The position numbers and the translations under genes were made by a program. DNA of 32,847 bases from Deltaproteobacteria bacterium (GTDB taxonomy: Bacteria; Desulfobacterota; Dissulfuribacteria; Dissulfuribacterales; JALVPX01), in contig JALVVK010000094.1 of NCBI GenBank assembly GCA_027023445.1, forward strand, positions 1-32,847, in the 5' to 3' direction. Positions 16,395 through 32,847 of this stretch are shown here, one piece after another (the stretch's first letter is position 1; each line of letters starts with the position of its first letter). Under the pieces are notes generated by a model that made no database searches, was not told the DNA's origin, and saw only the letters and a program-made list of their open reading frames with translations.

Positions 16395-16436
16395 ATTGCA
16401 AAGTTGAAGTTAAACTTGAACTTGCAGAACCTGAAC

Positions 16437-17675
16437 ATGAAAAAACAGGAATATTATTCCATCGGAAATATAGGCCAGAGGCTGGGGATTCCTCCCTCCA
16501 CCATCAGGTACTGGGAAAACGTATTCCAGGATCTCTGGAAACCTGAACGATCAAAGGGAGGGCAACGTCGTTATTCAAAGACGGATATAGATTTTCTACA
16601 AAAAATAATCCGCCTTTCACGTGAAAGGACTCTTGAATCGGTGAAATCCATTCTGAAACAGGAAAAGCTACAGGCTGAAGCCGAAACTGCGTTTGACTGG
16701 TCCGGCAAGGTCGTTCTGGTTACAGGCGGCACAGGGTCTTTCGGCACGGCCTTTATTTCAAGGCTGCTCAAGGAACATGATCCGGAAGCGGTGCGCATAT
16801 ACAGCAGGGATGAACTGAAGCAGTATCAACTCCATCAGAAGCTCAGGGATCCCCGCCTGCGTTTCCTTATCGGGGACGTAAGGGACCGAGAACGCCTGAT
16901 AAAGGCAACTCTTGGCGTGGATGTTATTGTGCACGCGGCTGCCATGAAGCAGGTGCCTGCGTGCGAGTATAACCCCTTCGAGGCGATCAAGACCAACGTC
17001 CTGGGTGCAAAGAACGTAATAGACGCGGCCTTGATCAACAAAGTCCCCAAGGTAATCGCCCTTAGCACGGACAAGGCGGTAAACCCTGCAAACCTCTACG
17101 GCGCCACAAAACTCTGCTCTGACAAAATGTTTATTCACGCCAATGTTTACAGTGGAAAAAGGCCGTCGCGGTTCGCCTGTGTGCGTTACGGCAACGTGCT
17201 CGCGTCCCGCGGCAGCGTTATCCCCCTGTTTCTTGAACAGCGAAAGACAGGATCGGTTACCATCACAGATCCCAAGATGACCCGCTTCTGGCTGACCCTA
17301 AGGGAGGCCACAACCCTGGTCATGAAGGCCCTGGCTTTCATGCAGGGAGGAGAAATCTTTGTTCCCAGGATTCCGAGCATGCGCCTTGTCGATCTTGCCA
17401 CTGCCATTGCACCGGAATGCAGGCAGAAGGTGGTAGGCATACGACCGGGTGAAAAGATCCATGAGGTTCTGATAAGCGAGGAGGAGGGACGCTACACCTA
17501 TCACAGGGACGGTATTTTCATGGTCCTGCCACATGAAAAGCAACATATCAGCGGAAATCACAATGGCTGGAAACAGGTACCCGGACATTTTATTTACGCA
17601 AGCAACACAAACGACCGCTGGCTCTCCAGTGAGGATTTGCGGTCACTCCTGGAAAGAGAGGGGATCTTAAACTGA
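16437..17675 (+). CDS. pseB: Fusion of a MerR-type DNA-binding domain with UDP-GlcNAc 4,6-dehydratase (PseB-like)
   Basis: 412 residues. Residues 4-75 are a winged helix of MerR type (YYSIGNIGQRLGIPPSTIRY, then KGGQRRYSKTDIDFLQKI). From about 85 an SDR of the inverting UDP-GlcNAc 4,6-dehydratase family follows: VTGGTGSFG (95-103), YSRDELKQYQ, GDVRDRERL, HAAAMKQVPACEYNP, STDKA with Asp212/Lys213, Tyr221-x3-Lys225, and RPGEKIHEVLI. PseB makes the 4-keto-6-deoxy-L-arabino sugar that starts pseudaminic acid synthesis. Normal PseB is about 330 residues and has no DNA-binding domain. ATG 16437 is chosen; in-frame TTG codons upstream (from 16404) lack a ribosome site. pseC overlaps the stop (TGATG). 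Confidence 0.9.
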   Translation: MKKQEYYSIGNIGQRLGIPPSTIRYWENVFQDLWKPERSKGGQRRYSKTDIDFLQKIIRLSRERTLESVKSILKQEKLQAEAETAFDWSGKVVLVTGGTGSFGTAFISRLLKEHDPEAVRIYSRDELKQYQLHQKLRDPRLRFLIGDVRDRERLIKATLGVDVIVHAAAMKQVPACEYNPFEAIKTNVLGAKNVIDAALINKVPKVIALSTDKAVNPANLYGATKLCSDKMFIHANVYSGKRPSRFACVRYGNVLASRGSVIPLFLEQRKTGSVTITDPKMTRFWLTLREATTLVMKALAFMQGGEIFVPRIPSMRLVDLATAIAPECRQKVVGIRPGEKIHEVLISEEEGRYTYHRDGIFMVLPHEKQHISGNHNGWKQVPGHFIYASNTNDRWLSSEDLRSLLEREGILN

Positions 17676-18850
17676 TGTTGCCCTACTCTCGCCAGACCAT
17701 CTATCCTGAAGATATAGATGCGGTCGTCAGGGTGCTCAAATCCGACTGGCTTACCCAGGGACCGGCAGTCCATGATTTTGAGACGGCCCTGTGCCAGTTA
17801 ACAGGCGCCCGGCACGCCGTAGCCGTTGCGAACGGTACCGCAGCCCTGTACCTGGCATGCAGGGCGCTTGATCTGTCTCCGGCTGACAAAGGGATTACGT
17901 CCCCGATGTCCTTCGCGGCATCGGCAAGCTGCATGGTTCTTGCCGGCGCAGGGGTGGATTTTGTGGATATAGAGGCGGACACGCTGTGCATGGACCCCGG
18001 GGCACTGCGGGCATATTGCGAGCAAAAACAACCGCCCGCCGTGGTCATCCCGATTGATTTCGCGGGGATATCCGCGAGACTCCCAGAGATATGGAAGCTC
18101 TCACGAAAATTCGGGTTCAAGGTGATCGAGGATGCGGCCCATGCCATCGGATCTTCATACTGTTATGACGGGGAGCGTTTCAATTGCGGGCAGTGCGCGC
18201 ACAGCGATCTCGCAACATTTTCCTTTCATCCGGTCAAGAACATAACCTGCGCCGAAGGGGGCGCGGTAACCACAAACGATCCGGAACTTGCGGAACGTGT
18301 AAGGCATCTTGCCAACCACGGGGTGGAAAAAGATGCCTCACGCTTTCAGACCCGGATCCCCGGAAGGATATGGCCATATGAGGTCCAGGACATATCCTTT
18401 AATTTCAGATTGAGCGACCTGCATGCGGCCCTTGGCAAAAGTCAGCTCTCAAGGCTCGAAAAATTTAAGGCAAAAAGGGCCGGGCTTGCGCGCATTTATT
18501 CTGAACGGCTCTCAGCGCTTGAGCAGGCCGGGCTTCTGAGGTTGCCGGTTCTCCCCGAATCATGCGATCCATGCCTGCATCTGTTTGTTATACGAACAGG
18601 GCCGGAAACGAAAATAACGAGGCAGGAACTGTTTGAAAGACTCATGGAGAAGGGCATAAGGTGCCAGGTGCATTACTGGCCCATTCATCTCCATCCCCTT
18701 TTCAGAAAAAAGTACGGGTTCAAGGAGGACGATTTTCCCGTGGCGGAAGAGGCTGCATCCCACTGCCTCAGCATCCCGCTTTTCCCGCAGATGTCAAAAG
18801 AAGACGCTATTTTTGTGGCAGACACACTGACCGAGATCCTAAAGGAATAA
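17675..18850 (+). CDS. pseC: PseC-like PLP-dependent 4-aminotransferase
   Basis: 391 residues, DegT/DnrJ/EryC1 family. It should transfer an amino group to C4 of the PseB product to give UDP-4-amino-4,6-dideoxy-AltNAc. Visible features: YSRQTIYPEDIDAVVRVLKS, DWLTQGPAVHDFE, VANGTAALYLACRAL, the PLP stretch VIEDAAHAIGSSY, the Schiff-base Lys188 in FSFHPVKNITCAEGG, and the substrate loop FNFRLSDLHAALGKSQL. The start overlaps the pseB stop by one base (TGATG), which is firm evidence for one operon. Names rest on the pairing with PseB; the aminotransferase family alone would not prove specificity. Confidence 0.88.
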   Translation: MLPYSRQTIYPEDIDAVVRVLKSDWLTQGPAVHDFETALCQLTGARHAVAVANGTAALYLACRALDLSPADKGITSPMSFAASASCMVLAGAGVDFVDIEADTLCMDPGALRAYCEQKQPPAVVIPIDFAGISARLPEIWKLSRKFGFKVIEDAAHAIGSSYCYDGERFNCGQCAHSDLATFSFHPVKNITCAEGGAVTTNDPELAERVRHLANHGVEKDASRFQTRIPGRIWPYEVQDISFNFRLSDLHAALGKSQLSRLEKFKAKRAGLARIYSERLSALEQAGLLRLPVLPESCDPCLHLFVIRTGPETKITRQELFERLMEKGIRCQVHYWPIHLHPLFRKKYGFKEDDFPVAEEAASHCLSIPLFPQMSKEDAIFVADTLTEILKE

Positions 18851-18871: not shown

Positions 18872-20635
18872 ATGGGCAAGGGAAACGAGACATATAAAAC
18901 CAGGCGCGAAAAGGCCGTTGCCTTCATAGTGGCACGTCTTGGTTCCTCCCGCCTGCCAGCCAAACAGTTCAGGAATATCGGGGACAGAACCCTTATCGAC
19001 TGGATTTTTGACGAGCTGAGAAAATGCGGGCAGCTCGATGAAATCGTTCTTGCCACCGTGGCCGAACCGACCAATGAGCCGCTAAGGGACTGGTGCGTGA
19101 GCAAGGGGATTGCCTGCTACTGGTATGAGGGTGAAACCGATCATGTCACCACAAGGCTGAGGAAGGCCGCAGAGGAATTCGGCGCGGACATCTGCGTGCT
19201 GGTAAGCGGTGACTGCCCGCTCATCTATGCCCCTGCCATTGACCGCCTGATCAGTGAACTTCGTCTTCATCCCGATGCGGATCTGATCAGGGTCAAGAAA
19301 GATGAGGCGGGAACCGCCGCCGCCCTTCAGGGAATCGGGGTTGCGCGAAGGCGCGCCTGGCAGCGTGCCGATGATCTGTCAGACCGGCCGGAGCTGAAAG
19401 AACACCAATTCCCCGTGATCGGTCAGCGGCCCGATCTGTTCCGGGCACATGAATGCGGGCTTGATGACGGCCTCTACCACTGGACCCCTCACAGGCTGTC
19501 CGTTGACACATGGGCAGACCTGGAATTCATGAATGCCGTCTATCATGCCCTTAAATCCGAGGGCAAACCGTTTTCACTGCCCTATGCCCTTGATGTCATG
19601 AAAAGGAATCCCCGTCTTCTTGAAATCAACAGGCATGTACACCAGATGGGCGTGGGAGAGAAACGGAAAAACGTGCTGATGATCGTGGATGCGGGCAACG
19701 GCTTTGGCTACGGCCACCTGATGCGAAGCCGTGAATTAGCCCTTCAGATCATAGAGCGTCTTGGATGGCCGGTGACCTTTCTCGTGAATGACGACAGGGC
19801 CAGGAAAATACTGGAACAAGTCGGCATAAGGAGTATGGATGATATTATAGGTCATGGATCATGGATCATGGGTCATGGGGCTGGGACGAAAAATGTGCCG
19901 GCAGACCAGCACGTTGGACAACTCATTGATTCCTTTGACCTGGTCATGCTGGACATCTATTGCCAGCGCCAGCTTGAGCCAGGGTGGAGGAAAAAACTGC
20001 CTCCGGGCTGCAAGGTGATGGTGCTGGACCGCCTGGAAGAGTGGGCAGAAGAGGCGGACCTGATAGTCATCCCCGGGGTGACGTACAACGAGGCCACGGC
20101 TTTTTCCGGAACACCAGGTCCGAAAATCCTGTTGGGGGCAGACTACATAATTCTACGCAGAGAGATCCGACGGCTTCAGGGACGAGATATTCCCAGGGAC
20201 CTGGATGCGCTGGCATATCTTCACCTGCCGGAACAGCGGGACGTTGTGGAAGGACTGGCCAGACAGAACGGCTATAAGGTTTATGTAGTGCATGGATTTG
20301 AGGATAATTTCTCCGGTCTCCTTTCCCGGAGCCGCCTGTTTATCAGCGGATTCGGCTACTCCTTTTACGAGGCGCTTGCCTTGGGCGCATGGCCCGTAAC
20401 CTGGCCTCTTTCAGATTTTCACAGGGCTGACGCCCGGAAATTCTACGCCCGCCTGGGTCTTGATCCATTAATAGTAACTAATGCGGATGAAGTTAAGGAC
20501 GTAATAAAGTCTGTCAGAAATACTCAAAGCTCAAGGCTCAAGGCTCAAGGCGAAAAAGAGGCCTTACAGATTCAGGATGGGACTCCGCGTATAGTCGCGG
20601 AGATGGCCTCAATGTTTAACACCCAAGGACATTGA
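18872..20635 (+). CDS. Fusion of SpsF-like cytidylyltransferase with PseG-like UDP-sugar hydrolase
   Basis: 587 residues. Residues 8-250 are a nucleotidyltransferase of the SpsF/COG1861 kind (VAFIVARLGSSRLPAKQFRN, LVSGDCPLI, RLSVDTWADLEFM), in the position where PseF would activate the sugar with CMP. From about 262 a GT-B-like PseG domain starts, VLMIVDAGNGFGYGHLMRSR, with catalytic-type His282, and later SGFGYSFYEALALGAWPVTW. PseG removes UDP from the bis-acetylated intermediate. Two heptanucleotide arrays are in the PseG half and encode low-complexity inserts (IGHGSWIMGHGAG and QSSRLKAQGEK). The two activities act at different steps, so this is a pathway fusion and not a channelled pair. 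Confidence 0.8.
   Translation: MGKGNETYKTRREKAVAFIVARLGSSRLPAKQFRNIGDRTLIDWIFDELRKCGQLDEIVLATVAEPTNEPLRDWCVSKGIACYWYEGETDHVTTRLRKAAEEFGADICVLVSGDCPLIYAPAIDRLISELRLHPDADLIRVKKDEAGTAAALQGIGVARRRAWQRADDLSDRPELKEHQFPVIGQRPDLFRAHECGLDDGLYHWTPHRLSVDTWADLEFMNAVYHALKSEGKPFSLPYALDVMKRNPRLLEINRHVHQMGVGEKRKNVLMIVDAGNGFGYGHLMRSRELALQIIERLGWPVTFLVNDDRARKILEQVGIRSMDDIIGHGSWIMGHGAGTKNVPADQHVGQLIDSFDLVMLDIYCQRQLEPGWRKKLPPGCKVMVLDRLEEWAEEADLIVIPGVTYNEATAFSGTPGPKILLGADYIILRREIRRLQGRDIPRDLDALAYLHLPEQRDVVEGLARQNGYKVYVVHGFEDNFSGLLSRSRLFISGFGYSFYEALALGAWPVTWPLSDFHRADARKFYARLGLDPLIVTNADEVKDVIKSVRNTQSSRLKAQGEKEALQIQDGTPRIVAEMASMFNTQGH
19850..19877 (+). repeat. Four tandem heptanucleotides in pseG coding sequence
   Basis: GGTCATG, GATCATG, GATCATG and GGTCATG are consecutive. 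The array encodes the Gly/His/Met-rich insert between MDDI and GTKNV. Gain or loss of one unit would shift the reading frame. Confidence 0.9.
20522..20549 (+). repeat. Four tandem heptanucleotides near the 3' end of pseG
   Basis: ACTCAAA, GCTCAAG, GCTCAAG and GCTCAAG are consecutive, followed by the partial unit GCGAAAA. The repeat codes for a short polar insert about 30 residues before the C-terminus. A slip here would change only the tail. Confidence 0.9.
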
Positions 20636-20643
20636 AGGTGTAA

Positions 20644-21558
20644 ATGCAAGGCGGACAGTGCACGGCAATCAAATTTGTGGCAGAGGTAGCCAGCAACCAC
20701 AACCGCGATCTTGAACGCTGTTTCCGGTTCATAGATACGGCAGCGGAGATCGGATGTGATGCGGTAAAATTTCAGCTTTTCAGGGTGGAAAAGCTCTTTG
20801 CCCCTGAGATACTGGAACGGAGCGAGGAACACAGGCGAAGGAAAAACTGGGAGCTACCAGTGGAATTCCTGCCCAAACTCCATAAGAGATGCATGGACGC
20901 GGGCATCCAATTCGCGTGCACGCCTTTTTACCTGGAGGCGGTAGATGAACTGATGCCCTATGTCAGTTTTTACAAAATCGCCTCCTACGAATTGTTATGG
21001 AAGGATCTTCTTACCGCCTGCGCACAAACCGGGAAGCCGGTGGCCCTTTCAACCGGCATGGCCACACTGGAGGAAATACGTGAGGCAGTAGATACGCTAC
21101 ACGGGGCAGGCTGTACCGACCTTACGCTTTTACACTGTGTGAGCGCCTATCCTACCCCGGTTAACGAATGCAACCTGGCTGCCATTGAAGCCTTACGAAA
21201 CAAATTCAAAATTCAAAATTCAAAACTCAAAATTAGATTTGGCTGGTCGGACCACAGCGTGACCCCGGCGGTTATATACAGGGCGGTTCACCGCTGGCAG
21301 GCGGAGCTGGTTGAATTCCATATGGATCTCGAGGGCAAAGGTGAAGAGTTCAGCGCGGGTCATTGCTGGCTGCCCCGGAAAATCGGAGAGGTAATCCAGT
21401 CGATCAGGCAGGGATTCAATGCTGATGGCAATGGTTCCAAAAAGGTAAGCGAAGCAGAGGCGGCGGACAGGGAATGGCGAGCCGATCCAGGGGACGGATT
21501 GAGGCCCATGAAGGAACTAAGGAGCAGTGAAAACAAAAAGCTGGCAAAACCATATTAG
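20644..21558 (+). CDS. pseI: PseI/NeuB-family nonulosonic acid synthase without SAF domain
   Basis: 304 residues. A NeuB-type TIM barrel: KFVAEVASNHNRDLERCFRF, AAEIGCDAVKFQLF, CTPFYLEAVDEL, YKIASYELLWKDLL, GKPVALSTGMATLEEI, LLHCVSAYPTPVNECNL and FGWSDHS. It should condense a hexose with phosphoenolpyruvate to the nine-carbon acid. Typical PseI/NeuB proteins (about 340-350) end in an antifreeze-like SAF domain; here the chain ends shortly after DREWRADPGDGLRPMKELR, a tail I recall from natural SAF-less homologs, so it is probably complete. A heptamer array inserts FKIQNSKLKI between the NK and RFGWSDHS. The ribosome site is GAAGG. PseH is missing from the operon. Confidence 0.82.
   Translation: MQGGQCTAIKFVAEVASNHNRDLERCFRFIDTAAEIGCDAVKFQLFRVEKLFAPEILERSEEHRRRKNWELPVEFLPKLHKRCMDAGIQFACTPFYLEAVDELMPYVSFYKIASYELLWKDLLTACAQTGKPVALSTGMATLEEIREAVDTLHGAGCTDLTLLHCVSAYPTPVNECNLAAIEALRNKFKIQNSKLKIRFGWSDHSVTPAVIYRAVHRWQAELVEFHMDLEGKGEEFSAGHCWLPRKIGEVIQSIRQGFNADGNGSKKVSEAEAADREWRADPGDGLRPMKELRSSENKKLAKPY
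21203..21230 (+). repeat. Four tandem heptanucleotides in pseI coding sequence
   Basis: AATTCAA three times, then AACTCAA, inside the barrel-coding part of the gene. It is A/T-rich, unlike the GC-balanced surroundings, and adds about ten Lys/Asn/Ile-rich residues relative to the family pattern. One unit more or less would frameshift the synthase. Confidence 0.92.
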
Positions 21559-21975: not shown

Positions 21976-22707
21976 ATGCCGGATTTAAAGGACAATGACA
22001 ACATCCGGCGGGTAACGGAGACCAGTGACAAGGTCAGTTTCTATCTGCATGAAGTAAAACACCGCCTGCTGGAACAGTTTGTCAGGGATGCAGATGTGCT
22101 GGATGTGGGGTGCGGGTCAGGTTTTGGTCTAAAAAAACTTTCGCATGTCTACAAAAGCGGTGTGGGCATAGATTACAATCAGAATGCGGTGGATTATGCC
22201 AACAGTCAGAATGTTCCCAATACAAAATATTTATGCATGGATGTACGGGACTTTCATATTGAAAACAGGAAGTTTGATGTAATTTATTCCATGGATGTTA
22301 TCGAACACCTGGATAATGTGGATGGTTATCTGGATTCAATTCGTAAACACCTGCGTCCGGGCGGACGCTTCATCTGCGCAACTCCCAATATCAAGTTTAC
22401 TAAAAACACCAATCCGGAGCATGTTTTTGAATATACAGTTGATGAATTTCGCGAAAAAATAGAGGAATTCTTCACTATCGAAGAGTATTACGGCCAGGAA
22501 AAAAATGATAAGTCGGCCCTTTTGCGTTTTCTGTGGAGTATAGACCTCCTGGGTATCCGTAAAAAAGTACCCGCCTCCTGGGCACGGATGACCCGGCGTA
22601 TTTTTGGTATTCCTTTGTACCATGAACTATCAGAGAAGCATTATCCACTGACAAAAAATTATAGCAAGGCCTATGCCTTATTGATTATAGCTCGCCATAA
22701 AGATTAA
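21976..22707 (+). CDS. Class I SAM-dependent methyltransferase
   Basis: 243 residues. SAM-binding motif I is VLDVGCGSGFGLKKL, followed by GVGIDYNQNAVDYA (motif II acidic residue), DVRDFHIENRKFDVIYSMDV with IEHLDN, and the LRPGGRFICATPN strand. The Methyltransf_11/UbiG-like fold fits small-molecule or sugar methylation; the substrate is unknown. The start is ATG 21976, five bases after GAGG; longer in-frame readings upstream run through the pseudogene. It is the first intact gene of the island and ends one base before asnB, so co-transcription is likely. Arginine codons are mostly CGN, unlike the flagellar side. Confidence 0.82.
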   Translation: MPDLKDNDNIRRVTETSDKVSFYLHEVKHRLLEQFVRDADVLDVGCGSGFGLKKLSHVYKSGVGIDYNQNAVDYANSQNVPNTKYLCMDVRDFHIENRKFDVIYSMDVIEHLDNVDGYLDSIRKHLRPGGRFICATPNIKFTKNTNPEHVFEYTVDEFREKIEEFFTIEEYYGQEKNDKSALLRFLWSIDLLGIRKKVPASWARMTRRIFGIPLYHELSEKHYPLTKNYSKAYALLIIARHKD

Positions 22708-22708
22708 T

Positions 22709-24409
22709 ATGTGCGGAATCAATGTAGTCATTTCAAACCGTTATGATATTGAAAAAACGCTTTTGCGCATGAATCAAACATTGGTGCATCGCGGCCCCGA
22801 TGCAGAGGGTTTGTGGTATGCAGACGGCATTGGTCTGGGGTTTCGCCGTTTGAGTATTATCGATCTTAACGAGGAAGGCGGGCAACCGCATTTTAATGAA
22901 GACAAAACGGTTATAAGTATATGCAATGGTGAGTTGTACAACTATAAGGCTTTACGCAGTGAATTGCAGAAAAAAGGTCACCGTTTTTATTCGCAAAATG
23001 ATACGGAGTTGATCCCTCATCTATACGAAGAATATGGCGCGGATTTTGTGCAGCTTCTGAATGGCATGTTTGCTATTGCAGTACATGATCTGCGTCGGAA
23101 TATAACACTGGTTTATCGTGACCGTCTGGGAATCAAACCGGTATTTTATACCAGTGAAGATGACACAATAATCGTATCGTCCGAGATAAAAGCAATTCGT
23201 TCAGTAAAAGAATCGAAGGTGCGCCGAGAGCTGGTGTCTGACTATCTTGTTTATGAGTATATACCAGGAGCCAATACGGCCTGGGAAGGTATCTGCAAAC
23301 TTCCGCAGGGTCACTATATGAGTGTGCAGCCGGGCGGTGTGGATATTGTTCCATACTGGAAACCGAATTTTTCACCGGCCGGCAGTAATTATCCCGCAGA
23401 TGGTGCCCGACTGGAGTCTTTGTTCGCTGATTCTGTGCGCCTGCGGATGCAGAGTGATGTTCCGGTAGGAATATTGTTCAGCGGCGGTCTCGATAGCTCA
23501 CTGGTCAGTTATTATGCGCAGCAGGCAGCCGGTGACGCTAATGAAATACTCTGCTTTCATGCCCGTATGCCGGGCGAAAAATCCGAAGCACATTATGCCC
23601 GCGAGTTTGCCGGATTTATCGGGGCGGAATATGTGGAAATTCCGGTGGAGCTGGATGAATTTTACAAGCACCTCGACATCTGCCTGAATTTTATGGATGA
23701 ACCTATTGGTGACAGTGCCATGATAACCAACTATCTGATCAACCAGAAGGCGTCTGAGTTTGTGAAAGTCATGCTTTCAGGCACAGGCGGTGACGAGCTT
23801 TTCGGCGGATACGGACGCTATGTCAGAGGTGTGCGGTCTCCTGCCTCAGATTTTTATAAACAGATGTGTTATTTTTCTCTGGAGGAAGTAAAACAGCTGA
23901 CAAGAGCTTCCTCCCGGCCCGAACAGTTTCTGCAAAATCTGGTGGACGAAAATATTGAGGACAAAGCCAATCGCCTGATGTGGATAGACGTGCGCTCTTA
24001 TCTGGTGGATCAGCTGCTGGCAATTGCCGATCGTATGTCTATGGCTCATTCACTGGAATTACGGCAGCCTTTTCTGGATCACCGGGTGGTAGAACATGCC
24101 ATGTCACTTCCAGCGGATCATAAGATGCCGGACCAGGGTAAAAAAATTTTGAAAGATCTCCTGCGAAAGGTTTACAGAGAGGAATATGTATCGCGGCCCA
24201 AGCAGGGTTTTGGTGTACCTCTGCAAAAATGGATGGAACGGCAGAAGGATAATGTGCTGAATTATATCCTGAAGCAAAGTTCCCTGTGTGAGTTTTATGA
24301 TATGGACAGAGACGCCCTGAAAAATATGCTGACACAGAAGCATCCTCTGCAGAAAAACCGTTTATGGAATGTGTATGTTCTGGCCCGCTGGACAGATCAA
24401 GTGATATAG
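22709..24409 (+). CDS. Asparagine synthase-type glutamine amidotransferase (AsnB family)
   Basis: 566 residues. The mature N-terminal Cys2 nucleophile (MCGINVVI), RGPDAEG and the GATase II domain cover about 1-200; the synthetase PP-loop SGGLDSS is at 258-264, with SGTGGDELFGGYGRY and LELRQPFLDHRVVEHAM after it. It uses glutamine ammonia and ATP to amidate an adenylated carboxylate. In glycan loci such proteins usually modify a sugar carboxylate or an attached amino acid and do not make free asparagine; which of these applies is inferred from context only. The next gene starts one base after the stop. Confidence 0.88.
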   Translation: MCGINVVISNRYDIEKTLLRMNQTLVHRGPDAEGLWYADGIGLGFRRLSIIDLNEEGGQPHFNEDKTVISICNGELYNYKALRSELQKKGHRFYSQNDTELIPHLYEEYGADFVQLLNGMFAIAVHDLRRNITLVYRDRLGIKPVFYTSEDDTIIVSSEIKAIRSVKESKVRRELVSDYLVYEYIPGANTAWEGICKLPQGHYMSVQPGGVDIVPYWKPNFSPAGSNYPADGARLESLFADSVRLRMQSDVPVGILFSGGLDSSLVSYYAQQAAGDANEILCFHARMPGEKSEAHYAREFAGFIGAEYVEIPVELDEFYKHLDICLNFMDEPIGDSAMITNYLINQKASEFVKVMLSGTGGDELFGGYGRYVRGVRSPASDFYKQMCYFSLEEVKQLTRASSRPEQFLQNLVDENIEDKANRLMWIDVRSYLVDQLLAIADRMSMAHSLELRQPFLDHRVVEHAMSLPADHKMPDQGKKILKDLLRKVYREEYVSRPKQGFGVPLQKWMERQKDNVLNYILKQSSLCEFYDMDRDALKNMLTQKHPLQKNRLWNVYVLARWTDQVI

Positions 24410-24410
24410 T

Positions 24411-25316
24411 ATGGGTGAACTGCCTCTTGTTTCAGTAATCATTCCCACGGCCAATCGTTACGAAGATCTATCGGAAACGCTGTATTATCTGCGCAAGCAA
24501 TTATACCGCAACCTGGAAATTATAGTAGTTGACAATAACTCAAGGGATGATACTCCCCGGCTGTGCCGCGAAGAATACCCCGAGGTCAGGTATATTCGCC
24601 TTGCCAGGAATATGTTTAATGTGCCCTCCCGCAATATTGCAATTGCCAATGCCACGGGCAAATATATTTTCTGTATTGATGATGATTCTTTTCCTGGAGT
24701 TGTGTCTCTGGAACGTGCCGTAAAGCGCATGGAAGAGAATGCAGGCATCGGGATTGTGAGTTTCGGGGTCAAAAACTATGCCCGTTTTTTTAATGCGGAC
24801 AGTTACATGGATGAAGTGCCTGCGGAAGAGGAAGCAGAAAGCCGGGAAGTACGGGGCTGGTCGGGCTGCGGCGGTCTGCTGCGTAAAGAACATTTTGATA
24901 GGTACGGATACTGGGAAGAAACCGGCAGCCGGAGCATGTACGAAATCACCAGCTGTATCAGGGCCTGGAATGAGGGAACCTCGGTTATGTTTTTCAGCGA
25001 TGTCTATGTGTACCATAAGGTATCGCAGAAAGGCGATGCCGCAAAGGTAAGAGTGAGCCGGCGCGGAATGCTGGAAGCTTCAGCAGCCCTGGGCCAGTTT
25101 ATCGTACAGTATTACCCGGCACGTTCCGCTATCAGACATTATATGGAATGGGTATATCAGAATATCCGTGCAATGGTTGAACGACGCACTCTGGCATTTT
25201 TGGCTCCTCTGTTTAGCGTGGCTTGGCGTCTGCCGGTTCTTTTAAAGGATCGAAAGAATTTTCCGCAGGAAGTCATGAATAAGGCCCGAATTACATACAA
25301 CTTTAAAGGGAAATAA
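24411..25316 (+). CDS. Family 2 glycosyltransferase
   Basis: 301 residues. The GT-A fold starts at LVSVIIPTANRYEDLSETLY; VVDNNSRDDTPRL is the nucleotide-binding acidic turn and FCIDDDSFPG carries the DXD-type metal site. GWSGCGGLLRKEHFDRYGYW fits the acceptor-side loop. A hydrophobic stretch near residue 265 (LAFLAPLFSVAWRLPVLL) may be membrane-associated. No signal peptide. Donor and acceptor cannot be read from the sequence. It sits between the amidotransferase and the GT9-like gene with one-base gaps. Confidence 0.88.
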   Translation: MGELPLVSVIIPTANRYEDLSETLYYLRKQLYRNLEIIVVDNNSRDDTPRLCREEYPEVRYIRLARNMFNVPSRNIAIANATGKYIFCIDDDSFPGVVSLERAVKRMEENAGIGIVSFGVKNYARFFNADSYMDEVPAEEEAESREVRGWSGCGGLLRKEHFDRYGYWEETGSRSMYEITSCIRAWNEGTSVMFFSDVYVYHKVSQKGDAAKVRVSRRGMLEASAALGQFIVQYYPARSAIRHYMEWVYQNIRAMVERRTLAFLAPLFSVAWRLPVLLKDRKNFPQEVMNKARITYNFKGK

Positions 25317-25317
25317 T

Positions 25318-25830
25318 ATGCAGGCGGGGGAAGTAAAAAAAGTTTTGATTATCCGGACCATTCAGGCCGATTTGCTGGGAGATCTGCTGGCCCGCTGGAA
25401 GGAATATTATCCGGAAGCTTCTTTTGATATCCTGACACATGCTTCGCAGGCCAACATATCCTATTATGAAACGCTTTTCTCCAATATATACATCTATGAA
25501 GCGAATTCAGATTTTGCCTGGAGCAGGCTTTCGGATGAATTAAAACAGGAACTGTCGGGATGCTATGATGTAATTCTGTTTGCGCATAAGTGGGATTCGA
25601 TAGCTGGCTTTGCCAATGTGATAGACTTGGCTCGCAGGCTGTCTCCTGTACAGATTGCCCATTCGAATTCAGCAGGAGAGGTTAAAGTTCTCAAAGGGAA
25701 TCAGCAGTTGAAACTTGCTGCTGAAAATGTGTTCAGCGTACTTTTCCTGATTATCTTTGGGCTTCCTGCTCTTCTGTTATCCGGAATATCACTGGGACGC
25801 TTCTTTTATTTATCCAGAAGGAAAATGTGA
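25318..25830 (+). CDS. Short GT9-like N-terminal domain with a C-terminal membrane segment
   Basis: 170 residues. The opening VKKVLIIRTIQADLLGDLLARWKEYYPEA resembles the N-terminal Rossmann domain of heptosyltransferase-like (GT9) proteins, and CYDVILFAHKWDSIAGFANVI could be the end of that half. The donor-binding C-terminal domain is missing; instead a hydrophobic helix (VFSVLFLIIFGLPALLLSGI) followed by LSRRKM ends the protein. It may be a membrane-anchored partner protein, because the frame is intact and joined to its neighbours by one-base gap and overlap. I do not recognise the exact family. Confidence 0.55.
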   Translation: MQAGEVKKVLIIRTIQADLLGDLLARWKEYYPEASFDILTHASQANISYYETLFSNIYIYEANSDFAWSRLSDELKQELSGCYDVILFAHKWDSIAGFANVIDLARRLSPVQIAHSNSAGEVKVLKGNQQLKLAAENVFSVLFLIIFGLPALLLSGISLGRFFYLSRRKM

Positions 25831-28088
25831 TGATACTGATTCTGGCTGGCGGTAACAGCCAATATTCACTTGTGCATGCCCTGAAAAAGCAGGGCTATGA
25901 TATTGCTGTTGTCGATAAAAACCCTGATGCCCCCTGCTTTGCCTTGGCTGATGAGGTTCTGCTGCACAGCACATGGGATGCTCTGGGAATTTTCAGCCTG
26001 CTCGAAGAAAAAAATCTTTCTGCAAAGATTACAGGAATAGCCGTTAAATCATCCGGCATGCCGGTTTTAACGGCATCGGCCTTATCGGAATGGCTTCATA
26101 TCCCTTTTGTGAGTGAAGCGAATGCCCGCAGTCTGACGGATAAAAAGGAGTTCCTGCAAAAAGCGGCACAGAGCGGTATTCCCGTGGCAAAACTGTTTGA
26201 TGATGAGACGAAAGTAGATCTTCCCTGTGTGGTGAAGCCAGCACTTTCCCATATCAGTAAAAAAGGCATAACTCTGGTCAGGGATAGAGAATCTCTGTAT
26301 GCCGCAATTGAAGTGGCCCGGACGTACAGTGTAAATGGAAAAATCAATATTGAAGAATATCTGGAGGGACCAGACTATTCGGTAATTTATCTGAATGAAC
26401 AGCCGGCGGTGCTGTTGGAACAGGTTTCTGAAGGCCCCCCCGATTTTCTGTCCAAAGGTTTTGTATACCGTCCGGAGAATCAGGATTTTGCGGAAATTAC
26501 TCCCCTGGTGAAAAAACTGATTCATGCCTTTTCTGTCAAGAACTCCCTGATTCAACTGGACCTGAAAAAACACAGGGGGCAATACTATATAATAGAAGTT
26601 CACCTGGATTTTGGCGGTGACTTTATTTTTGATATTCTGCTGGATGAGGTTTTCAAAGAAAATGTGCAGCAATCCGGCCATTCCTTTTTAGGTATTACTG
26701 CCGACGCTCTGCTCCACCGGAAGTCTCTGCCAGACCTGCGATATAATTCCGCAGCGCTACGTCTGCAGATGGTATATACACACGATCTCAAAGTAATGAG
26801 TACGGAGCAGAAGAAGACGCTGGTATACACCGGGGATTATAAAATGAATCCGCAGCAGGTTTTTCTGGTCGGCCACCGCATTTACGAGATTCCTGCACGA
26901 AAAGAAAGTGCGGTGCTTATTCTGGGTGGAAGTATTTTGCAGCAGCGGGTGATTGAATGGGCCGGTGAATCATTTGCTAAGGTCATTGTCAGTGATCAGA
27001 ACCCGGACTCACCGGGTATGCAGAATGCGGATTACCGGATATGCCGTAATGCCCGGGACAGCAACGGGATTCTTCTTGATCTGCAGAATATGGATGCCTA
27101 TGCATCGCTGGATATAAAAGGGGTGTATTGCGGGAGCGATTTCGGACTATCTTCCGTTGCCGCCCTGCAGGCGGCACTGGGAATTTCGGCCAATAGTGCG
27201 CAGAGTATTCGTAACGGTCTCAGTAAAACAATACAGCACCGGATTTTTGCACAGCGGGGTATAAATGTCCCGCAGCAGAAGGTCTACCATTCATTCAGCA
27301 GTGAAATTCATGAACTTGATTTTCCGCAGGTGATTAAGCCAGCTGACTCATCCGGATCATGCGGGGTGGAGATTTTATATTCACCAGAAGGAATCAGAGA
27401 AAAATTCCGTGCTGCTCAGGAACTGTCCTCCACCGGTGAGGTTATTTTCGAGGAGTATATAGAAGGCACGCACCATGATGTAAATTTGTTTTTGACAGAA
27501 GATTCTTATGTACCCTGCGGTGTGCTGGACCGTTATTTTTCGGCACCGCCTTATTGTGTCCCGGTAGGAGCTCTGGCTCCATCACGTCTGCCTGCCCAAA
27601 GACAGCAGGAGCTGTATGACACCCTGTATAATGCTGCTCGGGCCATAGGTTTGCAGACAGGTCCGGTAAAAGCGGACTATATCCTCAAAGGAAATAAAAA
27701 TTATCTGCTCGAAGTCACTCCCCGCTTTCATGGCGATATTTCCACCTCCTTTATGCTGCCGGAAGCCACGGAATTTGCACCGCCACGTCAACTTTTTGCC
27801 TACTGGAATGGCAGTGATTATGTGAATAATCCGGAATTCAATTATGTTGGCCTTCGTGTTATTGCTGGAAGAGAAGGAGTATTCAACGGGGTGGCTAATG
27901 AAGAGGAACTTGGGCAAATGCCGGGTGTGCGGCATGTGATAATACGGCGTGTTCCGGGCAGTCGTATAAAAGCCATGAAGGATAATCGTAATTTGATCGG
28001 TTTTCTTGTGGGAGTCGGAAATACGATAGAAGAATTGAATGAAAATCTGGAAAGGGCTTTGCAGAAAGTAGATGTGCAATATGAATAA
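25830..28088 (+). CDS. Tandem double ATP-grasp protein
   Basis: 752 residues. Two complete pre-ATP-grasp plus ATP-grasp modules: module 1 about 1-350 (ILILAGGNSQYSLVHALKKQ, CVVKPALSHISKKGITLV, YYIIEVHLDFGGDF) and module 2 about 355-752 (AVLILGGSILQQRVIEWAGE, QVIKPADSSGSCGVEILY, NYLLEVTPRFHGDIS). Module 1 lacks the usual Ser/Gly-rich loop and both modules replace the common IEVN asparagine (EVH, EVT), so one may be regulatory or degenerate. ATP-grasp enzymes form acyl-phosphates and join carboxylates to amines; carbamoyl phosphate synthase has a similar tandem layout but its sequence differs. ATG 25830 overlaps the previous stop (TGATG). Confidence 0.8.
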   Translation: MILILAGGNSQYSLVHALKKQGYDIAVVDKNPDAPCFALADEVLLHSTWDALGIFSLLEEKNLSAKITGIAVKSSGMPVLTASALSEWLHIPFVSEANARSLTDKKEFLQKAAQSGIPVAKLFDDETKVDLPCVVKPALSHISKKGITLVRDRESLYAAIEVARTYSVNGKINIEEYLEGPDYSVIYLNEQPAVLLEQVSEGPPDFLSKGFVYRPENQDFAEITPLVKKLIHAFSVKNSLIQLDLKKHRGQYYIIEVHLDFGGDFIFDILLDEVFKENVQQSGHSFLGITADALLHRKSLPDLRYNSAALRLQMVYTHDLKVMSTEQKKTLVYTGDYKMNPQQVFLVGHRIYEIPARKESAVLILGGSILQQRVIEWAGESFAKVIVSDQNPDSPGMQNADYRICRNARDSNGILLDLQNMDAYASLDIKGVYCGSDFGLSSVAALQAALGISANSAQSIRNGLSKTIQHRIFAQRGINVPQQKVYHSFSSEIHELDFPQVIKPADSSGSCGVEILYSPEGIREKFRAAQELSSTGEVIFEEYIEGTHHDVNLFLTEDSYVPCGVLDRYFSAPPYCVPVGALAPSRLPAQRQQELYDTLYNAARAIGLQTGPVKADYILKGNKNYLLEVTPRFHGDISTSFMLPEATEFAPPRQLFAYWNGSDYVNNPEFNYVGLRVIAGREGVFNGVANEEELGQMPGVRHVIIRRVPGSRIKAMKDNRNLIGFLVGVGNTIEELNENLERALQKVDVQYE

Positions 28089-28860
28089 AAAAGCAGAGGA
28101 ACAGGGTTCCGGTGAACAGAAGGTCGCGCTGGTTACCGGTGGAACAAAGGGTATAGGACTGGCTATAGTCCATGAGCTGATGTCTGCGAATTATATTGTT
28201 TATGCTACTTGGAGTCATAGTGAAGAATCAGCAAAACAAGCGGAGCATGAGCTGGGCCTGAGTTTTGCCAACCGGGAATTTCATCTGCTGCGTTGCGATG
28301 TTTCCCAGAAAGAGGAAAATGTATCGCTGATTGAAAAAATATATGCAGAGCATAACCGCCTAAATGTGCTGGTAAACAATGCCGGAGTGCTAAAGCAGCA
28401 AGATATTTTTCAGCTAAGTGAAGAAGACTGGGATACCACCTTTGGAGTAAATCTAAAAGGTCCTTTCTTCCTATTACAGCTGGTGATGCCCCGGATGAAG
28501 AAACAGGGTGGAGGCACAGTGGTGAATATTGTTTCCATAGGGGGGCAGACCGGAGGCTCTAAGGCTCCGGACTATGCGGCATCCAAAGCGGCTCTTATCT
28601 GCCTTACCCAGTCGATGGCTCGTCATGGTGCAAAGATGAATATTCGGGTAAATGCGGTTTCGCCAGGATGGATTGATACAGGAATTTTCTCACCGGAGCA
28701 GGCAAAAAAAATTAAAGAAGAAGCGAAGGTTCAGGTTCCTCTGGGACGCATGGGTACTCCCCGCGAAGTTGCCCATGCTGTCGGATTTCTAATATCTCCC
28801 AAAGCATCATATATAACCGGTCACATTTTAAATGTGAACGGTGGATTGCATATGGGGTAG
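28081..28860 (+). CDS. Short-chain dehydrogenase/reductase
   Basis: 259 residues from ATG 28081; an ATG at 28072 would add three. Classical SDR: VALVTGGTKGIGLAIVHEL (cofactor), VLVNNAGVLKQ, catalytic Ser in VVNIVSIGG, Tyr and Lys in YAASKAALIC, and the C-terminal YITGHILNVNGG. It resembles FabG-like 3-oxoacyl reductases, but many sugar-pathway reductases share this pattern and the neighbours argue for a keto-sugar. It overlaps the ATP-grasp gene by 8 bases and is followed by the DXS-like gene after 8 bases. Confidence 0.88.
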   Translation: MNKKAEEQGSGEQKVALVTGGTKGIGLAIVHELMSANYIVYATWSHSEESAKQAEHELGLSFANREFHLLRCDVSQKEENVSLIEKIYAEHNRLNVLVNNAGVLKQQDIFQLSEEDWDTTFGVNLKGPFFLLQLVMPRMKKQGGGTVVNIVSIGGQTGGSKAPDYAASKAALICLTQSMARHGAKMNIRVNAVSPGWIDTGIFSPEQAKKIKEEAKVQVPLGRMGTPREVAHAVGFLISPKASYITGHILNVNGGLHMG

Positions 28861-28868
28861 GAGAATTC

Positions 28869-30638
28869 ATGAATTATTTATTACTGGACAGGATTAAAGA
28901 TCCCCGTGATGTGCAGGCCTTGGCGATTGAGCGACTTCCAGAGCTGGCTGCCGAAATTCGCAGCTTTTTAATTGAATCCATTTCCCGTACTGGCGGGCAC
29001 ATTGGCGCAAACCTGGGAGTGGTGGAGCTGACTATTGCTTTACACTATGTTTTTGGGGCTCAGGAACAGATTATTTTTGATACTGGCCATCAAGGGTATA
29101 CACATAAGCTGCTTACCGGTCGTAAAGAATTATTTGCCAGTCTGAATCAGCCGGGTGGTATGTCCCGTTTTCTTGACCGTCGCGAAAGCAGCTATGACAC
29201 TATTGACGCTTCACATGCTGGTACGGCCATATCGATTGCCAGTGGTTTGGCTCAGGCCCATAAACTAAATGGCGACGATCACTGCGTAGTAGCTTTAGTG
29301 GGTGATGGAGCACTGGTTGAAGGCATGTCGCTGGAAGGTCTGAATTTTGCCACAGCATCTGATATTCCTCTGTTGATAGTCATCAATGATAACGGTATGG
29401 CTATTCCCCCCAATGTAGGGGGCATAAGTAAATTATTCAGTGGCAAAGACTCACTAAAAAAATCCCGGTACTTTTTTGAAGGCCTGGGTTTTCAGTATTA
29501 TGGAGTGCAGGATGGTCATGACCTGAATGCATTGGTGAACACTTTTAAGCAGGCCCGCCGCGCAGTACGCCAGGGAGCTGTTGTTGTTCATACAAAAACC
29601 GAAAAAGGTCGTGGCCTAGATCTGGCCAAAAAACATCCTTATAAACTGCATTTTTCCATGCCTTTTGATCCGAAAAGTGGTGCTGGTATTTCACCCCTTC
29701 CGGCGGGTACAACCTATGGTGCAGTAGCCGGAGCTAAGATGCATGAACTAATGGCAAAGGATAAGGATATGGTTATTCTTACTCCTTCCACTCCCTATGC
29801 TTCTTTTCTGGATGCCTGTTTTGCAGATTATCCGGAGCGGACTATTGATGTGGGCATGGCTGAACAGCATGCCATAGGAATGGCCTGCGGCTTGGCCCTG
29901 GAAGGTAAAAAGCCTTTTGTCTGCTTTCAATCCACCTTCATGCAGAGAGCCTTTGATCAGCTGATCCATGATGCAGCATATATGGATCTACCGATAACTG
30001 TTATGGCGGTGCGTTCAGGATTTGCCGGCCTGGACAGTTCTACCCATCATGGTATTTATGATTTCAGTTATTTGAAAGCCATTCCCAATCTGGAAATCTT
30101 TTATCCGGGCAGTACCCGAGATCTGAAAGATATGATAGATTTTCGCCTGCAGAATGCTGACCATCCGATGGCGATACTCTATCCCTATGAAGAGGTGAGT
30201 GCATATGATTCCTTATTAGTGGATTCTTTCACTGACCTGCAAAATCCTCAAATTGTGCATAAAGGGAAAGATGGGCTTATCCTTTTTCCCGGGAATTGTG
30301 TGGACACTGCTGTAGAATTACAGGCGTTACTTGCGTCTGCAGGGCAGCACTATGCTTCCGCCAATATCCGTCATCTGCGTCCCCTGCCGGTGGATTGGCT
30401 GAAAGAACAGATGCAGCAATATTACCGTATTGTTGTGCTGGAAGAAAATATATTAGATGGTGGTTTGGGCAGTGATGTGGCCGCGTTGGCGGCAGACCTG
30501 GAATTGCCGGTACAGATCTTACGGAGTGGAATACCCACATCCTTTGTTCCGGCCGGTAACAAACGAGAGCTGATGGAAAAAACCGGTATTGATGCGCTGA
30601 GCATTTTTCATAAAATGCAGGAGCGCTGGGGTTTGTAA
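28869..30638 (+). CDS. DXS-like thiamine-diphosphate carboligase/transketolase
   Basis: 589 residues, with the three-domain order of 1-deoxy-D-xylulose-5-phosphate synthase (about 620). Landmarks: LLDRIKDPRDVQALAIERLP, TGGHIGANLGVVELTIALHY, GHQGYTHKLLTGR, ThDP motif VGDGALVEGMSLEGLN to INDNGM, the catalytic Glu in DVGMAEQHAIGMA, and a C-terminal domain with NILDGGLGSDV. Canonical DXS residues differ: WDVGHQAYPHK becomes FDTGHQGYTHK and the GTGHSST motif becomes DASHAGT. With no isoprenoid genes nearby it is more likely a paralog that joins a two-carbon unit to a sugar aldehyde or ketose. GGAG precedes the ATG. Confidence 0.82.
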   Translation: MNYLLLDRIKDPRDVQALAIERLPELAAEIRSFLIESISRTGGHIGANLGVVELTIALHYVFGAQEQIIFDTGHQGYTHKLLTGRKELFASLNQPGGMSRFLDRRESSYDTIDASHAGTAISIASGLAQAHKLNGDDHCVVALVGDGALVEGMSLEGLNFATASDIPLLIVINDNGMAIPPNVGGISKLFSGKDSLKKSRYFFEGLGFQYYGVQDGHDLNALVNTFKQARRAVRQGAVVVHTKTEKGRGLDLAKKHPYKLHFSMPFDPKSGAGISPLPAGTTYGAVAGAKMHELMAKDKDMVILTPSTPYASFLDACFADYPERTIDVGMAEQHAIGMACGLALEGKKPFVCFQSTFMQRAFDQLIHDAAYMDLPITVMAVRSGFAGLDSSTHHGIYDFSYLKAIPNLEIFYPGSTRDLKDMIDFRLQNADHPMAILYPYEEVSAYDSLLVDSFTDLQNPQIVHKGKDGLILFPGNCVDTAVELQALLASAGQHYASANIRHLRPLPVDWLKEQMQQYYRIVVLEENILDGGLGSDVAALAADLELPVQILRSGIPTSFVPAGNKRELMEKTGIDALSIFHKMQERWGL

Positions 30639-31891
30639 TGCAGGGGAAAGCGGTTCTGATATTAGGTGCGGGCAGGGATCAACTATTTATGATCCGCACT
30701 GCCAAAGAAATGGGTTTGTTGACCGTGGCAGTGGATGGTAACCCTTCTGCTCCGGGGTTGTCTGAAGCGGATTATGCTGAGCCCATAAACTTCAGTCATA
30801 TTGGTGAAGTGAAAGCCTATGTCCGATGTTTGCTGGATAAAGGAATACCTCTGTCTGGTGTATGTACGATGGGTAGTGATATACCTAACCTACTTGCGGA
30901 AGTGGCTGAAGAATTTGGTTGGTCCGGACCATCACGCGAAACTGGCTATCTGACTACCGACAAGTTTGCCATGAAAGAGTGCTTACGCAAAGCAGGTATT
31001 CCCGTTCCGGATTATTGCATAGTACAAAGAAAAGAAGACGTCCTCAGGCAATGGAAAGAATGGGGTGCGCAAAAAGTCGTACTGAAACCTACAGACAGAG
31101 CAGGATCCCGCGGTGTGAGCATTCTGGCTTCTACAGACGAAATTGCCGATGCATGGAAAAATGCAGCGGACAACTCCCTGAATGGGCGGATTTTACTGGA
31201 ACGCTATATTGAAGGTCCGCAAATCAGCACTGAATCTATTCTTTATGATGATTTTTCAGCAACGCCCGGATTTGCAGACCGCGTGTACGAAGATATGGAG
31301 GTTTTCTGGCCGCAGGTTATGGAAAACGGCGGCTGGGTACCGTCCCGGGAAAATGCAGATGTGCAGAAAAAAATTTCAGAACTCGTTGAAAGAGCAGCCC
31401 GGGCTCTGGGTATAAGCAGAGGTCCTGCGAAAGGGGATGTGGTTCTTTCGGAGCAGGGACCGATGATTATTGAAATTGCCGCGCGTCTGAGTGGCGGTGA
31501 TTTTTGCGAGTCACTGGTTCCACTGGGAACCGGGGTGAATTATGTAAAAGAAGTTCTGCGTATCGCCACGGGCGAAAAACCGGATCCGGCGGCTCTGCGG
31601 CCTCGATGGAATAAAGCTGTCGCCAACCGCTATTTCTTTTTACCGCCCGGCAGATTGGATGGTATCAGGGGAGTCGGGGAGGCACAAGCGCAGGATTATA
31701 TCCATAAATTTGAACTGTACTATAAAAAAGGCGAGATCATTCCGCCTATTCAGAACCACGGGCAGAGAGTGGGAGTCTTTGTACTGGTTGCGGATGACCG
31801 TATACAGGCTCAGGCAAAAGTGGATTATATTTATAATCAGGTGGAATTTAAAATGGACGGCAGCTGGCGAAAAGGTTTTTTAAAAAGATGA
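30638..31891 (+). CDS. ATP-grasp ligase
   Basis: 417 residues. The pre-ATP-grasp Rossmann start is AVLILGAGRDQLFMIRTAKE; the ATP-binding loop is VVLKPTDRAGSRGVSIL, then ILLERYIEGPQISTESI, and the metal-binding strand MIIEIAARLSGGDF, with Ala where Asn is common. The C-terminal domain (LRPRWNKAVANRYFFLPPG onward) is of the kind seen after PurK/biotin-carboxylase-like grasps. It likely forms a peptide or amide bond on a sugar intermediate or an amino acid; the substrate is unknown. Its ATG shares a base with the previous stop (TAATG), and it is the last gene of the operon. Confidence 0.82.
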   Translation: MQGKAVLILGAGRDQLFMIRTAKEMGLLTVAVDGNPSAPGLSEADYAEPINFSHIGEVKAYVRCLLDKGIPLSGVCTMGSDIPNLLAEVAEEFGWSGPSRETGYLTTDKFAMKECLRKAGIPVPDYCIVQRKEDVLRQWKEWGAQKVVLKPTDRAGSRGVSILASTDEIADAWKNAADNSLNGRILLERYIEGPQISTESILYDDFSATPGFADRVYEDMEVFWPQVMENGGWVPSRENADVQKKISELVERAARALGISRGPAKGDVVLSEQGPMIIEIAARLSGGDFCESLVPLGTGVNYVKEVLRIATGEKPDPAALRPRWNKAVANRYFFLPPGRLDGIRGVGEAQAQDYIHKFELYYKKGEIIPPIQNHGQRVGVFVLVADDRIQAQAKVDYIYNQVEFKMDGSWRKGFLKR

Positions 31892-31952: not shown

Positions 31953-32847
31953 CCCGAATTATGCAGCTCAAGGCATAGGGGATCTATTATGACATGATTT
32001 TTAATGTTCGTGGCACGAATTTGCATCAAGGCTTCTTTTGGGGATGGCCCGGGGATAAAAATCAGCGAATCAAGCGCCCTGGTGAATTCCTCCTTGTGAG
32101 GCTACTTCATCAGGTTGTAGGCCAGCATGACCAACTCGAAATAGAGTCTGGCTCCTGCCCAATGCCTCGTAATACTCTTGTCCAGGCCGAATCCGTAGAA
32201 GCCCTCCTTGATAAAGTTCTCGCAGCAGGCACGCTTGTTGTAAACCCGCCAGACATCCTCGCCAGGAGCCTTGCTGTTGGTGGCAATCACCTGATAATTA
32301 TAAAGATCCTCCTGAACGCTCAGAAGCTTGAGCTCCTTGCGGGGCTTTTCTCCCTTTCGAACCAGCTCCCGAATCACCACCAGGCGCATGTCCTTGAGGG
32401 AGGGAAACGGCAGACTCAACTCACCCACAGCAAAACCCTCGCCAAACTCCCTCCAGTTGCCGATACTGAGGATCATTCTTTGGAGCCATACCTGCTGGGG
32501 TACCACTACATAGAACTCGATCTTGCGCGTCATCAGCCAGCGCAGGAATTCGACCTTGAAAAACCCGCTGTCTGCCCGAAGCCTCTTTGCCTTGTTCTCC
32601 GGCAACTTTTTCATTATGGACTGGAGAAAGTCCTGAGCCTTGTAACCACTGGTGCGATTGCCAGGACGAAAGACTCCTCCGATATAGTCCCTTGTCTCCC
32701 CGATAAAGCACATAAGGGGATGGTAGCTGGACCTGCCAGGTTTCTTGGGATTGTAACCCCTCTTGGCCCTGTGCTGCCTGCCAAAGACCGGTATGACGTG
32801 GGAGTCCAGGTCCAGGGTGATGGCATTCATGTCACGAAATCCCCTGC
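31953..32847 (-). mobile_element. IS1380-family insertion sequence, 3' end (other end outside window)
   Basis: The terminal repeat CCCGAATTATGCAGCTC lies at 31953-31969, with TTTAT just outside (31948-31952). The transposase begins 150 bases further in. The left terminus of the MITE at 921 shares the same bases except for two or three, so one transposase may have mobilised both. The region 31892-31952 between the ATP-grasp stop and this end holds no gene. Confidence 0.75.
32102..32847 (-). CDS. IS1380-family DDE transposase, N-terminal part outside the window
   Basis: About 248 C-terminal residues are visible, reading RGFRDMNAITLDLDSHV at the edge. Catalytic residues: Asp in TLDLDSHV, Asp in RLRADSGFF, Glu in CCENFIKEGF. 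Also GRQHRAKRGYNPKKPGRSSY and HWAGARLYFELVMLAYNLMK, both typical of IS1380. Full-length members are about 430 residues, so roughly 180 are missing only because of the window end, not from truncation that can be seen. The visible frame is intact to the TAG at 32102, so the element may be active. Confidence 0.9.
   Translation of the reverse strand, partial: RGFRDMNAITLDLDSHVIPVFGRQHRAKRGYNPKKPGRSSYHPLMCFIGETRDYIGGVFRPGNRTSGYKAQDFLQSIMKKLPENKAKRLRADSGFFKVEFLRWLMTRKIEFYVVVPQQVWLQRMILSIGNWREFGEGFAVGELSLPFPSLKDMRLVVIRELVRKGEKPRKELKLLSVQEDLYNYQVIATNSKAPGEDVWRVYNKRACCENFIKEGFYGFGLDKSITRHWAGARLYFELVMLAYNLMK

Follow-up and report, generated by a model that had tools for sequence, protein, structure and literature searches.

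In this study, we analyzed a window of 32,847 nt on contig JALVVK010000094.1 (C94) of assembly GCA_027023445.1, a source genome that is 99% complete and spread over 142 contigs; all coordinates are window positions. Eight open reading frames (ORFs), all on the plus strand at 21976-31891, continue a set of pseudaminic acid (Pse) genes beside a flagellin gene, and related loci carry Maf and flagellin genes. We consider it moderately likely that this locus is the second half of a pseudaminic acid flagellin glycosylation island similar to sfm of Shewanella oneidensis, in which an amide-linked, custom-made hydroxy acid would replace the acetyl group added by PseH. The evidence that carries this proposal is a gene order conserved in Shewanella, the common descent of the core proteins, and a clade of DXS-like enzymes that has lost residues for substrate binding.

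Gene content of the locus

The genes of the island are listed below (coordinates, strand, description, basis), with SDR standing for short-chain dehydrogenase/reductase.

13421..15853, +, flagellin 1 (810 aa), upstream flank; Flagellin_N/C
16404..17675, +, PseB, fused in one ORF to an N-terminal MerR/HspR-like helix-turn-helix; TIGR03589, 461.8 bits (cut-off 407.75), and MerR_1
17675..18850, +, PseC aminotransferase; TIGR03588, 439.3 bits (cut-off 423.5)
18872..20635, +, CMP-sugar cytidylyltransferase, probably PseG-like in its C-terminal half; CTP_transf_3, residues 17-164
20644..21558, +, short NeuB (304 aa), SfmA-like, proposed pseudaminic acid synthase; PF03102 only
21976..22707, +, class-I S-adenosylmethionine (SAM) methyltransferase, candidate O-methylation step; Methyltransf_11/23
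22709..24409, +, AsnB-type glutamine amidotransferase, full-length; TIGR01536 above cut-off, Cys2, SGGLDSS motif
24411..25316, +, GT2 glycosyltransferase; PF00535
25318..25830, +, 170-aa protein with a long C-terminal helix; no Pfam family
25827..28088, +, double ATP-grasp protein, type 1 fused to type 2; Pfam/NCBIfam
28072..28860, +, SDR reductase (SfmC position); Pfam/NCBIfam, 49-50% identity to S. insulae and S. waksmanii
28869..30638, +, DXS-like thiamine diphosphate carboligase, Arg478 and Tyr392 lost; DXP_synthase_N, E=5e-82
30638..31891, +, type-3 ATP-grasp ligase with LAL_C2 (SfmE position); 53-54% identity to Shewanella

From the methyltransferase to the last ATP-grasp gene, the intergenic gaps are 1, 1, 1, -4, -17, 8 and -1 nt (negative values are overlaps), in agreement with a preliminary description of this DNA that had noted eight genes joined by overlaps or tiny gaps. 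Seven of the eight proteins were assigned to families by Pfam/NCBIfam, but the plural glycosyltransferases of that description were reduced to the GT2 protein: a Pfam scan of the 170-aa ORF, even at E<=5, gave no match. The predicted structure of the 170-aa protein is of low confidence (predicted local distance difference test score of 51 overall and about 80 in the C-terminal helix) and too poor for a fold search. The methyltransferase ORF opens with an ATG at 21976 and has an alternative GTG opening at 21892, and AsnB is the sole Asn_synthase gene in the source genome. Third-position GC is 0.42-0.50 in the block versus 0.58-0.61 in the Pse genes directly upstream, a contrast that suggests separate acquisition of the two parts. 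A promoter scan returned no more sites than were found in shuffled sequence.

The type-1 ATP-grasp unit covers approximately residues 1-357 of the double protein. The ATP-binding Lys and the E-x-x-x-R motif of carboxylate-amine ligases are kept in type 2 (EVTPRFHGD) and type 3; the type-1 units of both the window and Shewanella have Asp at the Arg position (EVHxDxxGD), and type 1 may thus be altered or non-catalytic. Fusion of types 1 and 2 in the window suggests that they act together.

In the test for the pseudaminic acid pathway, PseB and PseC passed their equivalog cut-offs, whereas neither PseH nor a SAF-bearing PseI was found. The best PseH match in the source genome scored 22.8 bits against a cut-off of 93.1, and none was recognised. 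A family scan of the short NeuB gave no SAF domain match, and its score with the PseI model was 162 bits, below the cut-off of 340. It is 61-67% identical to the short NeuBs of Shewanella and of one same-phylum locus. In the source genome, three Shewanella and four same-phylum genomes (G216, G261, G375 and G199), a short NeuB is the sole strong match to the NeuB family. An invariant DRxWRADPxDGLRP motif ends this family without SAF (window 20644-21558; related loci L048, L049, L050 and L065). The C-terminal half of the cytidylyltransferase protein has no Pfam match; the protein has 24-30% matches among two-part proteins of related loci. Those PseBs from related loci that were aligned match the window PseB ORF (16404-17675) only from about residue 93-99 onward, and the MerR/HspR-like fusion looks peculiar to the source genome.

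The DXS-like enzyme and its related loci

The DXS-like protein passes the NCBIfam dxs cut-offs, and forms one group in the tree (support 100/99) with three Shewanella proteins and one from a same-phylum genome (G251). When compared with E. coli DXS, these five members keep H49, H80, D152, N181, H299, E370, R398, R420, D427 and H431, whereas all of them carry Y392Q, R475L and R478Y; about 40-50 residues are also missing after the N-terminal part relative to canonical DXS. Y392 and R478 are both kept in the canonical DXS of the source genome (contig C111) and in three other compared DXS, and R478 and R420 are important for binding of D-glyceraldehyde 3-phosphate (D-GAP) in DXS (PMC11908136). The window protein therefore resembles canonical DXS in family, catalytic His/Glu and cofactor-side residues, and differs from it at Arg478, Tyr392 and Arg475 and in the location of its gene in a flagellin locus. 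From this residue pattern, we infer a changed acceptor rather than a dead enzyme. The clade lacks a D-GAP-binding arginine and nevertheless scores above the NCBIfam dxs cut-offs, and its members are therefore probably misannotated as dxs. Our literature search found no publication joining DXS with flagellin and pseudaminic acid.

A single scan of the genome collection with the DXS-like protein returned three Shewanella proteins at 48-49% identity and eight further matches at 29-38%; the resulting comparison sample is small (five DXS-like members and ten related loci). The loci of S. insulae (L048), S. carassii (L049) and S. waksmanii (L050) all carry Maf, short NeuB, SDR, DXS-like, type-3 ATP-grasp, methyltransferase, GH57-like, CMP-transferase, PseC and PseB genes, and their identities to the window proteins are 61-63% for short NeuB, 48-50% for the DXS-like enzyme and 53-54% for the type-3 ATP-grasp. 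The core of three ATP-grasp units, SDR and DXS-like enzyme, with short NeuB and Maf, recurs in S. insulae and S. waksmanii, where ATP-grasp types 1 and 2 are adjacent separate genes and not fused as in the window. A smaller core (carboligase, SDR, ATP-grasp and GH57-like) is found in S. carassii and in same-phylum genomes; S. carassii has a pyruvyl-transferase-like gene where the window has types 1 and 2, and an SDR of a different kind. AsnB, GT2 and the 170-aa protein are present in the window but in none of the Shewanella loci.

Among 395 same-phylum genomes, only G251 has another DXS-like match below 1e-120. The short NeuB is more widespread, being found in five same-phylum genomes besides the source (G216, G251, G261, G375 and G199, the last on a 3-kb contig that is too short to show a neighbourhood). 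On the same stretch as the short NeuB, all four usable same-phylum contigs carry genes for a thiamine enzyme, an SDR, an ATP-grasp and a GH57-like protein; so do all three Shewanella, together with Maf. The carbon-carbon enzyme of this module varies, being DXS-like in G251, a split transketolase in G216, G261 and G375, fructose-6-phosphate aldolase (FSA)/transaldolase-like in G098 and IlvB-type in S. oneidensis MR-1, while SDR and ATP-grasp are constant. In locus L063 (8065-8769), an FSA-like protein directly precedes SDR, ATP-grasp, GH57-like, Maf and flagellin genes, in the place of the thiamine enzyme. Two split-transketolase loci, in G188 and G216, contain a B12-binding radical SAM protein (L061 3519-4907, confirmed by Pfam; L060 12384-13808, with a similar start), possibly a C-methylation step.

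The core proteins share a history. The trees of the DXS-like and type-3 ATP-grasp proteins have the same branching (G251, window, S. waksmanii, then S. insulae with S. carassii), and in the ATP-grasp tree the window and Shewanella units of types 1, 2 and 3 pair off, with types 1 and 2 on long branches. SDR identity tracks the neighbouring genes: it is 49-50% between the window and S. insulae or S. waksmanii, all with types 1 and 2, 61% between S. carassii and G251, both with the pyruvyl-transferase-like gene in their place, and 52-65% among the split-transketolase loci. We judge from these comparisons that the conservation of gene order in Shewanella, and partly in same-phylum genomes, is far beyond chance. 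A search for the double ATP-grasp in the order of the source gave only generic ATP-grasp matches, and thus the locus is not common to close relatives; all DXS matches in a plasmid and phage scan were less than 40% identical. The shared neighbourhood anticipated in the preliminary description was found, the closest DXS-like relatives found adjoining the same SDR and ATP-grasp types and not lying in unrelated loci. As for the co-occurrence it envisaged, the DXS-like gene recurs with ATP-grasp units, but no AsnB was seen in any related locus.

Proposed pathway and alternative explanations

In S. oneidensis MR-1, sfmABCDE encodes a short NeuB, an IlvB-type enzyme, an SDR, a methyltransferase and an ATP-grasp protein, and mutants in these genes lose flagellin modification, sfmE having the weakest effect (PMC3765264). 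The same publication describes a flagellin glycan with a mono-N-acetyl pseudaminic-type residue (C11H18N2O6, 274 Da) bearing one free amine, and an O-methylated outer moiety of C9H16O7, C10H18O7 or C11H20O7 that is thought to be nitrogen-free; orthologs of PseH, PseG, PseI and PseF were unclear (PMC3765264). Our recalculated masses of mono-N-acetyl Pse (274.116) and C9H16O7 (236.090) agree with these values. An amide-linked C9H16O7 residue would correspond to the acid C9H18O8, hexahydroxylated and saturated apart from its carboxyl, in keeping with reduction of a keto group by the SDR.

All five gene classes of sfm are present together in the window locus. Contrary to the preliminary description, which knew of no such pathway, there is thus a precedent, although the chemistry of sfm is unsolved (PMC3765264). 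Because its carboligase is DXS-like and not IlvB-type as SfmB is, the window locus is an sfm-like variant and not an sfm operon proper; the MR-1 locus was compared through published gene descriptions, not sequences. MR-1 also resembles the window in having no clear PseH, a Maf gene next door and modified flagellin, with PseB and PseC encoded elsewhere in MR-1, and differs in having one ATP-grasp protein against three units and no AsnB or GT2 in the operon. What is new relative to sfm is the DXS-like enzyme in the carboligase slot, the fused double ATP-grasp and the extra genes.

In the proposed pathway, a 4-amino sugar nucleotide made by PseB and PseC would be carried on to the CMP-nonulosonate by the short NeuB and the PseG-like/CMP-transferase protein, and Maf would attach the nonulosonate to flagellin. 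In place of acetylation by PseH, the amine left free, which becomes N7 of the finished sugar, would be acylated with a made-to-order hydroxy acid. For this acid, the DXS-like enzyme would couple two carbons derived from pyruvate to an aldehyde that bears a carboxylate, the SDR would reduce the resulting ketone, and the methyltransferase may O-methylate the product. The type-3 ATP-grasp ligase would then form the amide between hydroxy acid and sugar amine, and the fused types 1 and 2 would build or add a further amide-linked piece. Replacement of the N7 acetyl group is the simplest reading given the composition of the MR-1 glycan and a source genome with no recognised PseH; donor, acceptor, step order and amide site are our inference and are not taken from the available part of the MR-1 publication.

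Several points weigh against this pathway. The activities of the module enzymes are predicted ones, both here and in the papers found. Products of DXS and transketolase carry a carboxylate only if the acceptor does, and the acceptor here is hypothetical. Joining of amino acids is the known role of LAL_C2 ligases, and so an amino-acid substituent is possible. The product of SfmB, an IlvB-type enzyme in S. oneidensis, may differ from that of the DXS-like enzyme. One genome, G318, has SDR and ATP-grasp genes without an adjacent carbon-carbon enzyme. Finally, the outer group of MR-1 is published as a formula and not as a structure, and a glycosidic residue of the same formula is possible (PMC3765264).

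Among the alternatives, decoration with amino acids or peptides deserves most attention, although we regard it as unlikely: LAL_C2 ATP-grasps and AsnB would attach and amidate amino acids, and the DXS-like enzyme and SDR would make an unusual side chain or other small group. The ATP-grasp units do match LAL_C2 and D-Ala ligase-like families, three of them plus AsnB make many amide-forming enzymes, and the Clostridioides difficile type B flagellin locus has an ATP-grasp gene and a taurine/Ala/Gly peptidylamido cap that is amide-linked to the glycan (PMC5207245, PMC5207246). However, the outer group of MR-1, from a locus with the same SDR and ATP-grasp classes, was reported as nitrogen-free, and AsnB is missing from the related loci seen. 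The C. difficile glycan is also built on GlcNAc-Rha-Rha-Fuc3N and not on pseudaminic acid, and no carboligase is mentioned in the accessible parts of these papers; a publication on the flagellin island of Geobacillus mentions neither a carboligase nor an ATP-grasp. Improbable, in our opinion, is a branched-chain sugar, in which a keto sugar would receive a two-carbon branch from the carboligase and then be reduced by the SDR, as in yersiniose. A carboligase beside a reductase follows the general logic of branched sugars, but the only sugar-nucleotide genes seen lead from UDP-GlcNAc to Pse, the carboligase shares its history with the ATP-grasp, and the branched-sugar carboligases known to us are not DXS-like. 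By the same sugar-nucleotide genes, the branched or deoxy-ketose sugar of the preliminary description was not borne out, nor was any evidence obtained for lipopolysaccharide as carrier; its glycan with amide-linked groups on flagellin accords with the setting of the block.

We attach a similarly low probability to the idea that the short NeuB supplies the acyl chain, as a 3-deoxy-2-keto acid, instead of making Pse. This enzyme tracks the module and lacks SAF, and a reduced ulosonate could yield a saturated polyhydroxy acid, yet no other Pse synthase would then be left in the genomes where the short NeuB is the sole strong family match. It is very improbable that the DXS-like gene encodes an additional, ordinary DXP synthase placed by chance and AsnB is the asparagine synthetase of the cell, although the AsnB half of this reading may hold by itself. 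The dxs cut-offs and the single Asn_synthase gene would fit, but a canonical DXS is already present, and all five clade members have lost Arg478 and Tyr392 and lie with SDR and ATP-grasp in nonulosonate loci.

Beyond the hydroxy acid proposed for this locus, a general 'custom N-acyl' system for flagellar nonulosonic acids, with an exchangeable carbon-carbon enzyme and an SDR building the hydroxy acid and an ATP-grasp, not an acyl-CoA transferase, attaching it, seems to us evenly balanced between right and wrong. An exchangeable carboligase slot was not described in the literature searched, which lay mostly outside subscription papers. If true, the DXS-like clade would represent a new enzyme activity, a carboligase for sugar-acid synthesis. 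Our comparison ties sfm, experimentally required but chemically unexplained, to a conserved module common to Shewanella and the distant source group. The proposed reaction order is testable.

Downstream end of the contig

Downstream of the block, one further feature was found by the family scan:

32102..32830, -, IS1380 transposase at the contig end

The window and contig C9 of the same genome share 127 identical bases, at the end of the former and the start of the latter. Since contig C101 also ends in these bases, the join of C94 to C9 is only likely. It is favoured by the GH57-like gene that opens C9, as a gene of this kind comes after the final ATP-grasp gene in ten related loci: L059-L063, L065, L076 and, with one methyltransferase in between, L048-L050. 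C9 further contains a GT9-like gene, a sulfotransferase, Maf (PF01973, with a weak PseD match), a TPR protein, flagellin 2, FliD and FliS. Nearly all module loci have the GH57-like gene after the ATP-grasp (the C9 copy is L083 746-2821); its product, about 650-700 aa long, has invariant EQ and DAE motifs as a candidate catalytic pair. The sulfotransferase (L083 5143-5964) lies between the GT9-like gene and Maf, and the flagellar glycan may thus be sulfated.

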